DNA from: an uncultured Bacteroidota bacterium
GTDB taxonomy: Bacteria; Bacteroidota; Bacteroidia; Bacteroidales; VadinHA17
Assembly: GCA_937864815.1 (NCBI GenBank)
Contig: CALMJY010000044.1
Span: 1-55,268 of the forward strand
DNA: 55,268 nt
Direction of reading: 5' to 3'
Made by a program: the position numbers and the translations under genes
Part shown: in pieces, positions 37,866-38,646 of the stretch
Layout of the letters: every line of letters begins with the position of its first letter
Numbering within the stretch: the first letter of the stretch is position 1
The notes under the pieces: model-generated
What the model saw: the letters and a program-made list of their open reading frames with translations, nothing else
What the model was told of the DNA's origin: nothing
Databases searched by the model: none

Positions 37866-38432
37866 TCAGGGTGGATTTTCATTATATGCATGTTCTTGTA
37901 TAATAATTTGCATCCCCATCCTAACCTTCCCCCAGGGCATAGCCGTCAAGCTAAGACTGTAATTAGTAGAGGGAATGCGAAAAAAGTTTCCCCTTTTGAA
38001 GGAGGGGTGTCCCGACACATCAGTGTCGGGACGGGGTGGTTGATTTTTATTTGGGGTTGATTCATTATTCCGGTTCAAAACTTTTCGTATCTCACTTTTA
38101 ATGTATTCAGGCTCCTGGAATACAAATCTGTTTTCAAACCTCAATACAGTGAATCCTAATCTCAACAGATACTTATCTCTGTTTTCATCTTTTTGTATCT
38201 TATGATATTCACCATGCAGATCCCCATCAAGTTCAATGATAAGTTTTTCTGAAGGACAACAAAAGTCTGCAATAAAACTACCAATACTGTATTGTCTTCT
38301 GAATTTTCTTCCGTCCAGCTTCCTGGATTTTAACATATCCCATAATGTAGATTCAGCTGAAGTGGAACTCTTTCTTAGAGATGATCTGAAAGATTTAAGA
38401 TCCTTTCTATTGAAGAGGTTATTGTTATTCAT
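37866..38432 (-). CDS. DUF559 family PD-(D/E)XK-like nuclease
   Basis: 188 residues from the ATG at 38432; a start at 38465 would add residues from the right inverted repeat. The core DUF559 domain spans about 8-120: LRKSSTSAESTLWDMLKSRK, then the Vsr-like catalytic block FIADFCCPSEKLIIELDGDL with Asp56, Glu67, Asp69 and His73, and DENRDKYLLRLGFTVLRFEN. The last 65 or so residues (starting NESTPNKNQPPRPDTDVSGH) are simply the left inverted repeat read in frame, so the working protein may end near residue 122. The gene is enclosed by inverted repeats (see 37911-38646). DUF559 proteins are predicted DNA endonucleases; no methylase or mismatch-repair gene is adjacent. Confidence 0.88.
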   Translation of the reverse strand: MNNNNLFNRKDLKSFRSSLRKSSTSAESTLWDMLKSRKLDGRKFRRQYSIGSFIADFCCPSEKLIIELDGDLHGEYHKIQKDENRDKYLLRLGFTVLRFENRFVFQEPEYIKSEIRKVLNRNNESTPNKNQPPRPDTDVSGHPSFKRGNFFRIPSTNYSLSLTAMPWGKVRMGMQIIIQEHAYNENPP

Positions 38433-38646
38433 AGGTACTAAGATAAACAGAATTGAATGAATCAACCACCCCGGCCGGGAAAGTTACTTTGTAAATATCA
38501 GATAATCAACAGTCCCGGCCACCCCTCCTTCAAAAGGAGGGGAAACTTATGCTACACCTTCAATTCAGGTTATAATTTCTATAGATTGACGGTTATACCC
38601 TTAGCTTGACAGCCCTGCCCCATGGGGAGAAATTAAAAAGGGGGGT
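37911..38646. mobile_element. Inverted-repeat cassette carrying a DUF559 nuclease
   Basis: About 736 bp. The left arm (37911-38045) and right arm (38459-38646, inverted) share, in order: a CCCCCA.GGGCA block, GTCAAGCTAAG, AAGTTTCCCC, the palindrome TTTTGAAGGAGGGGTG, a GC hairpin (GTCCCGACAC..GTGTCGGGAC left; GGCCGGGA..TCCCGGCC right), and GGGGTGGTTGATT. Only the DUF559 gene lies between the arms. The shared blocks are long and ordered but separated by unlike sequence, so the repeats are imperfect. This looks like a mobile or formerly mobile unit. Confidence 0.7.

Follow-up and report, generated by a model that had tools for sequence, protein, structure and literature searches.

The window analysed here is the whole 55,268-nucleotide (nt) stretch of contig CALMJY010000044.1, from an uncultured Bacteroidota bacterium, and it carries a small gene for a nuclease of the DUF559 family that is enclosed by two inverted, palindrome-bearing arms (Table 1). 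An earlier note on this DNA had described a full DUF559 block between two arms built of the same ordered blocks, with nothing else inside and with the gene entering one arm at its 3' end, and all of this was borne out: the window protein matches PF04480 with 110.2 bits (curated cut-off 20.6, E = 5.9e-32), four inverted pairs (I1, I2, I5 and I8, of 37, 21, 17 and 12 nt) connect positions 37926-38066 with 38456-38629, DUF559 is the sole gene found between the repeats, where no Y1 HUH transposase was found, and the frame extends through both the 3' arm and the terminal repeat of the outer layer to stop beyond the element at 37866. The open reading frame (ORF) as listed starts at a TTG (38465; 37866-38465, minus strand), and its ATG lies at 38432. 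On the evidence presented below, we think that DUF559 is probably the gene that resides in a mobile element bounded by intrastrand-triplex palindromes of the BoxC/PIT/TM type, in a layout that resembles repetitive extragenic palindromic (REP) elements with their REP-associated tyrosine transposases (RAYTs).

The extent and the make-up of the arms required correction. The arms proposed for 37911..38646 are real, but the element proper spans 37938-38617 and is composed of two superposed layers. Read from the outside towards the gene, the inner arms consist of the palindrome CCCCTCCTTTTGAAGGAGGGG, an extra GC hairpin and the G-rich tail GGGGTGGTTGATT, as the earlier list of blocks had it, and one stem of the palindrome in the 3' arm is shortened (TTTCCCCTTTTGAAGGAGGGG); the outermost listed block, GTCAAGCTAAG, is a terminal repeat that belongs to an IS4-type DDE element and stands outside the nuclease system. 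A single-layer reading of the arms was rejected because the outer ends were found with a DDE transposase and with 10-bp duplications. The window arms read CCCCTCC/GGAGGGG/GGGGTGG, and a triplex scanner detected the exact intrastrand-triplex motif in the 5' arm only, with the extra hairpin taken as a long loop 2, and no such motif in the 3' arm.

An AlphaFold model of the nuclease (mean predicted local distance difference test score 83.9) was compared with the PDB by Foldseek, which returned NGO0050 (3hrl, E 3e-8) and I-Bth0305I (3r3p, E 2.4e-4, template modelling score 0.62/0.74). The model also resembles mitochondrial ribosome proteins of Toxoplasma and Tetrahymena (9i05, 9g6k, 6z1p), matches that we take to be perhaps Vsr-like RAP domains. 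Residues E27, D56, E67, D69 and H73 (ATG numbering) are invariant in an alignment of 37 proteins, so the aligned copies look catalytically intact, and the predicted fold together with these residues identifies DUF559 as a Vsr-like EDxHD nuclease. Pfam scans of the window gene and of the long ORFs discussed below yielded DUF559-type and host-protein families and no intein family; neither an intron nor an intein was noticed, with no search aimed at introns. One DUF559 gene has been placed among the EDxHD homing endonucleases as described in PMC9403480, and a YcjD profile detects Vsr according to PMC1189080.

Table 1. Features of the two-layer element in the window
Feature	Coordinates	Strand	Remarks
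Whole two-layer element	37938..38617	.	680 bp
DUF559 nuclease coding sequence	37866..38432	-	188 aa from ATG 38432; PF04480 E 5.9e-32
DUF559 / Vsr-like EDxHD nuclease domain	38076..38399	-	Profile match, alignment, fold
Inner 5' arm	38466..38542	-	Palindrome + extra GC hairpin + third G strand
Inner 5' arm palindrome CCCCTCCTTTTGAAGGAGGGG	38522-38542	-	
Inner 5' arm extra GC hairpin	about 38470-38520	-	
Inner 5' arm third G strand GGGGTGG	38466-38472	-	Then TTGATT on gene side
Inner 3' arm	37987..38046	-	Shortened palindrome + extra hairpin + GGGGTGG + TTGATT
Inner 3' arm shortened palindrome	37987-38007	-	
Inner 3' arm extra hairpin GTCCCGACAC/GTGTCGGGAC	about 38009-38032	-	
Inner 3' arm GGGGTGG	38033-38039	-	Then TTGATT
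Outer terminal inverted repeat CATAGCCGTCAAGCTAAG, 18 bp	37938..37955	+	IS4/DDE-type element end
Outer terminal inverted repeat, opposite end CAGGGCTGTCAAGCTAAG	38600..38617	-	
Left 10-bp flank TCCCCCAGGG	37928..37937	.	Possibly decayed target duplication; 6/10 positions equal to right flank
Right 10-bp flank CCCCATGGGG	38618..38627	.	

Inverted arms and a triplex motif at DUF559 genes of many phyla

To compare the window with other DUF559 genes, we took from named genomes the best 80 of at least 573 confirmed candidate loci, in Proteobacteria, Chloroflexi, Planctomycetota, Verrucomicrobia, Bacillota, Caldisericia and others, of which 76 were usable (4 were dropped for short flanks), and scored inverted arms between the 350-nt flanks, using windows from the same contigs as controls. 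A score of at least 34, which served as the threshold, was reached by 59 of the 76 DUF559 loci versus 0 of 271 control windows, and a score of at least 30 by 62 versus 5. The earlier note had named the occurrence of such arms, in inverted order, at other DUF559 genes as the test of its idea that a REP-like palindromic element carries DUF559 as its own gene; with arms so placed in many phyla as well as in the window's own genome, that idea is strongly supported. By eye, the commonest form in 25 printed loci has the palindrome outside and a G-rich tail (GGGGTGAGGG) gene-ward on both sides.

An intrastrand-triplex motif was detected in 67 of the 76 DUF559 loci versus 8 of 411 control windows, and both arms carried it pointing inward in 40 of the 76 versus none of the 411. 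Two Bacteroidota sets gave any motif in 18/31 and 19/27 loci (controls 1/36 and 3/30), and in each set only 4 loci had both arms pointing inward. With exact stems, the tails of informative arms were nearer the mirror of the purine stem than its parallel, by 88 versus 17 arms at stem 8, 57 versus 19 at stem 9 and 47 versus 14 at stem 10.

The triplex motif is specific to DUF559 among the families compared. In one set of 148 Bacteroidota genomes, for which complete loci with 500-nt flanks were used (incomplete loci, 6/30 for DUF559, 3/30 for Vsr and 3/30 for Y1_Tnp, were dropped), the motif was present at 16/24 DUF559, 0/27 Vsr and 0/27 Y1_Tnp loci, and an inverted score of at least 34 at 9/24, 0/27 and 12/27, respectively. 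The arms of Y1_Tnp genes are those expected for REP/RAYT systems, and the triplex motif is not among them.

Genome-wide counts in the same 148 genomes pointed in the same direction: of the 63 genomes in which DUF559 matched strongly, 36 had at least three motif matches, versus 17 of the 85 others (Fisher p 4.8e-6), the latter 85 including 15 genomes with only weak PF04480 matches that were counted as negative. The Spearman correlation of motif and DUF559 counts was 0.48, and a reversed control pattern was not enriched in DUF559 genomes.

Copies with and without the gene in the genome and genus

The window's own genome holds eight PF04480 places, seven of them DUF559 (one broken, L007) and one Vsr. 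GC palindromes in inverted order lie on both sides at 7/7 DUF559 places as judged by eye, with a palindrome type that varies with the subfamily, and the Vsr gene (L008, also L340, G000:C235) has no palindromic arms and a neighbour that reads like a cytosine methyltransferase. The window-type palindrome (up to two mismatches) occurs 27 times in this genome versus 2 for the reversed pattern, and 35, 51 and 24 times in the relatives G002, G012 and G019 versus 0, 0 and 0; it was absent at that stringency from 23 of 41 genomes. The general triplex pattern gave 450 matches in the own genome versus 1 for the control, the 450 being inflated by overlapping matches. Neither excess is a matter of chance.

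Arms without the gene, for which the earlier note had proposed a search, were found as inverted pairs: 14 of 20 regions fetched from G002 hold such a pair, with units 257-414 bp apart, and no DUF559 was detected in these 14 at E 1e-8. Remnants of DUF559 remain in two of the paired regions (L059, L062) and in one unpaired region (L070), and three copies in G019 are internally deleted DUF559 genes.

Arms and proteins co-vary. Among 34 DUF559 loci of the own genome and its relatives (5 of 39 were dropped), 557 of 561 pairs lie in differing surroundings, that is, their outer flanks lack strong similarity (short flanks were taken as different), and across these 557 pairs arm similarity rises with protein identity, a trend that 0 of 500 permutations equalled. 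The share of pairs whose arms scored at least 40 was 0 below 40% identity, 0.02-0.03 at 40-50%, 0.23 at 50-60%, 0.94 at 60-70% and 1.0 above. A search of 62 genus genomes, the own one included, gave no empty site for the window copy, and G210 matches the neighbouring gene at 70%.

DUF559 domains in frame within host proteins

We defined a coding insertion as a DUF559 domain flanked, within one open frame, by more than 150 codons on each side, and 21 of 115 scored loci were of this kind. Pfam scans of 20 of them (L157 was left out) revealed host-protein domains in 20/20 ORFs, and in 15 on both sides of DUF559. The hosts are LeuRS, entered before the editing domain in L020, L158 and L160 and elsewhere in L182 (the host genus of a LeuRS-insertion locus is represented by one genome), MetH, at the same linker in L171 and L176 and at another in L188, HsdR (L161, L163, L196), a type ISP enzyme (L156), a helicase (L192), and, again with domains on both sides, MmeI (L206), PriA (L215) and Mfd (L222). 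The five ORFs with host domains on one side only, namely N6 methylase (L168), HsdS (L186), DUF1156 (L191), MmeI methylase (L193) and N4/N6 methylase (L202), may be fusions for that reason.

Comparison with solved structures delimits two of the inserts: residues 476-627 (152) of the MetH copy L176 stand where the solved chain has 753-771 (19), and residues 301-460 (160) of the LeuRS copy L158 where Thermus thermophilus LeuRS has 237-239 (3). Where printed, arm translations are Pro/Ser/Gly-rich peptides. On a cyanobacterial plasmid (L376), a DUF559 gene with arms adjoins, and apparently splits, the BREX gene pglX. In the raw tally of hosts, restriction-modification and helicase genes are prominent besides LeuRS and MetH.

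The ycjD locus and BoxC repeats of Escherichia coli

In E. coli the DUF559 gene is ycjD, which lies between sapF and fabI; 3361 of 5426 genomes match at least 80% of a query made of ycjD and its flanks. MG1655 has 23 of the BoxC/PIT/TM repeats described in PMC4666352, which include five inverted pairs, and the account given there of their surroundings reports no remnants of transposases or integrases. BoxC ("TMECO") no. 9 of that paper (1351204-1351239) lies 167 bp from ycjD (1351407-1351760) in E. coli K-12. The window arms do not match the E. coli BoxC consensus (CCCTCNCCC..GGGNGAGGG..GGGNGAGGG) and have the same architecture in another sequence.

BoxC regions vary between strains according to PMC4666352, and we compared several of them. 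The pair between hrpB and mrcB (1+2) differs between strains: among 40 rows spread over the ranking, 24 had full coverage, 2 covered 95%, 13 covered 87-88% and 1 was a stray match. Three of the 13 were aligned; the pair is missing from them, and the junction is simple, without an obvious target duplication. Of the two rows at 95%, one is an internal deletion. At ygfF-gcvP, many strains match on one side only. Two further sites gave no clean empty site: sapF-fabI was rejected as an empty/filled pair, as four strains without ycjD carry other genes there, namely a multidrug efflux operon (known as eef, PMC12817139), and at alx-sstT, of three sequences, two are shorter through an internal deletion that leaves one hairpin and the third is unrelated sequence. 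In some strains the alx-sstT pair has been cut in this way to a single hairpin (L380 and L381 versus L379), an event also described in PMC4666352.

An outer cassette of the IS4/DDE type

The outer-end pattern CATAGCCGTCAACNTAAG, searched with one mismatch in 40 genomes of the genus, occurs in 15 of them, with 13+6 matches in the window's own genome and 0 for the control. In a relative (G017, L129) two outer ends 1.63 kb apart flank a 453-aa frame that matches DDE_Tnp_1 (PF01609), and in G019 (L130) one outer end adjoins a PF01609 gene. The repeat is absent from the remaining 28 of 30 PF01609 loci (from 34 sampled places, 4 of which gave no locus), among them the three of the window's own genome (G000), an assembly of 348 contigs.

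From the fetched loci we gathered 30 cassettes with both outer ends, and compared their 10-bp flanks: the duplication is exact in 6 and has at most one mismatch in 10, where mispaired flanks would give 0 and 0.14. Many of the duplicated sequences, which are rich in GC, are palindromes (CCCCAAGGGG, CCCCGAAGGG). Because the 10-bp flanks of the window copy agree at only 6 of 10 positions, its own duplication is decayed or doubtful. One cassette (L098:1501-2512, G047:C205) has window-type outer ends and an exact 10-bp duplication around a Y1_Tnp gene (PF01797, E 8e-20) with its own palindromes. Allowing up to four mismatches, a pair of outer ends occurs among the eight own PF04480 loci at the window locus only (L007 has a single end, and L001, L003-L006 and L008 have none), and no pair was found in 29 loci of the phylum or in the 80 loci of the genome_contigs set.

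Outer ends, 10-bp duplications, GC-palindromic targets and cargo cassettes are features that we take to be those of IS231-like IS4 elements, an assignment to the IS4 family that rests on PF01609 and on this resemblance; the window differs from IS231-type IS4 cargo cassettes in that the cargo is a DUF559-triplex element. Two engines are superposed in the window copy, the DUF559-triplex unit being packaged in a DDE cassette, and a DDE transposase acting in trans probably made its last move. Cassettes of this kind (e.g. L083, L119, L065) insert at GC-rich, often palindromic sites, and their targets are perhaps other dispersed palindromes.

A nuclease as the likely driver of BoxC/PIT-type repeats

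We consider it likely that the nuclease drives the spread of BoxC/PIT-type repeats. The gene-bearing copy would be a nuclease gene between two inverted repeat units, and gene-less pairs its non-autonomous offspring. Most likely, the nuclease would recognise the folded repeat, a hairpin or triplex exposed on single strands, and nick or cut it, and repair or replication restart would copy the repeat pair, with or without the gene, to a new place. Hydrolytic nucleases of the DUF559-type fold do not themselves join strands, and it would therefore fall to the repair or replication machinery of the host to do the copying. Insertions in large host proteins would survive because the arms are short and translatable and the frame is kept, and in the window the element sits inside a cassette with IS4-type ends, with the DDE transposase probably supplied in trans for the last move. 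Recognition and cutting by DUF559, and the copying step, are parts that we infer.

Our findings further suggest that the DUF559 nuclease is the missing partner of the orphan BoxC repeat, and that the two make up a type of selfish DNA not recognised before. In its widest form, which we advance tentatively and hold at close to even weight, the proposal is that a stand-alone Vsr/EDxHD nuclease, by recognising intrastrand-triplex DNA, spreads its own gene together with a much greater gene-less population of BoxC/PIT-type repeats across phyla, E. coli included, inserting in frame even in essential enzymes without a transposase, intron or intein.

Several observations weigh against a nuclease-driven element. 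The Foldseek match of the model to Vsr itself (1cw0) is weak (E 0.011, root-mean-square deviation 9.7). Seventeen of the 76 DUF559 loci, the Caulobacter locus included, fall below the arm threshold, which in the Bacteroidota set was reached by fewer DUF559 (9/24) than Y1_Tnp (12/27) loci; at loose settings, mirror and parallel third strands were equally frequent (67 versus 64 of 76). The scored arms of free genes vary in orientation (69 inward versus 26 outward), and among the scored arms of coding insertions 11 of 12 face outward in Bacteroidota (L171, L176, L182, L020 and others) versus 13 of 13 inward elsewhere. The inner layer showed neither a target duplication nor a constant target, and the window's sole insertion signature, the 10-bp flanks that agree at 6/10, belongs to the outer DDE layer. 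The proposed mechanism explains neither the outward/inward split in coding insertions nor the missing inner-layer duplication. The co-occurrence statistics ignore phylogeny, and 14 of the 85 DUF559-negative genomes, two of them with a weak PF04480 match, have at least five motif matches, so repeats can exist without the gene. In E. coli, recognisable BoxC units lie on the 3' side of ycjD only, the 5' side having a different inverted repeat, and the aligned empty site at hrpB-mrcB could be a deletion rather than an insertion, the direction of the presence/absence differences in that species being one that we infer.

An account in which the palindromes and DUF559 are passengers of an IS4-type DDE cassette whose 18-bp ends do all the moving fits the outer layer, given the PF01609 frame of L129, the 10-bp duplications and the Y1_Tnp cassette of L098. 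We consider it unlikely for the inner one: the pair of outer ends is confined to the window locus among the eight own loci and is found in none of the 29 + 80 others, and such passengers would leave the specificity of the triplex motif for DUF559 unexplained, which already makes this account insufficient as a general one. We likewise doubt that the triplex repeats owe their movement to a Y1/RAYT (HUH) transposase acting in trans, with DUF559 as a regulator or hitch-hiker. Y1_Tnp is present in 106 of the 148 genomes, 12/27 of its loci have inverted arms (score at least 34) and it was once found in the same outer cassette, but the triplex motif separates the two families in the same genome set (0/27 Y1_Tnp versus 16/24 DUF559 loci), and DUF559 as mere RAYT cargo was rejected on the 0/27.

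It is also improbable that DUF559 is a host repair nuclease, like Vsr or VsrA, which resolves repeat structures in a unit without mobility of its own. The DUF559 protein VsrA of Caulobacter triggers the SOS response in a methylation mutant, is linked to 5-methylcytosine and breaks, and has been proposed to act in mismatch repair as described in PMC12907096, and the strain-to-strain variability of BoxC regions (PMC4666352) would suit such a role; against it stand the in-frame copies in LeuRS, MetH, HsdR, MmeI, PriA and Mfd, the deleted copies, and the differing surroundings of 557/561 locus pairs, which look selfish rather than like a conserved repair gene. Chance juxtaposition of a small gene and terminator-like palindromes can hardly be the explanation, common as palindromes are in intergenic DNA, as it is refuted by the control windows, the Vsr and Y1_Tnp controls and the permutation test.

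If a nuclease does drive these repeats, mobile elements that need no transposase and consist of a restriction-fold nuclease with its folded-DNA target would represent a new mechanism. The copies found in frame within LeuRS, MetH, helicases and restriction enzymes would then amount to protein-insertion experiments performed by nature. DUF559 is a widespread orphan nuclease family still named for its unknown function, and the link to BoxC gives each a partner; E. coli K-12, which has both ycjD and BoxC copies, makes the question open to experiment.

Comparison with known systems

The DUF559 element shares with the BoxC/PIT/TM repeats of PMC4666352 the order of pyrimidine stem, loop, purine stem, short loop and mirror G-rich third strand, the dispersal partly as inverted pairs, and, in E. 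coli, copy no. 9 beside ycjD; the window arm differs in its extra hairpin in the second loop and in one shortened stem. The word ycjD is absent from the main text of that paper, which reports no mobility genes at the sites, and a search of the open-access literature, with preprints and most subscription papers outside its scope, gave no link between DUF559 and the repeats; among 14 open-access papers that contain the term DUF559, no title concerns repeats. As in REP/REPIN-RAYT systems, the gene lies between two inverted palindromic units, gene-less pairs are dispersed and repeats and gene co-vary; unlike them, the DUF559 element has a Vsr/EDxHD nuclease rather than an HUH enzyme, a triplex third strand and in-frame insertions in host genes.

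Rickettsia palindromic elements likewise place palindromic repeats in frame in protein genes, and we know of no nuclease gene in them. I-Bth0305I (3r3p) has the same catalytic fold and invariant E, D, D and H residues, whereas the DUF559 protein is short, lacks an evident extra DNA-binding region and is repeat-flanked. NGO0050 (3hrl), YcjD and VsrA belong to the same DUF559 family, and the passages on these proteins in PMC1189080 and PMC12907096 do not connect them with a repeat element.

Other arrangements at DUF559 loci

Seven loci of Xanthomonadaceae type (L219, L220, L224, L230, L234, L237, L263) have the DUF559 element at the same place, which is presumably hppD-hmgA. Dyella jiangningensis carries two DUF559 copies with identical printed flanks (L237, L239). 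At L207, L199, L167 and L165, DUF559 lies between long palindrome-containing direct repeats, besides or instead of inverted arms.

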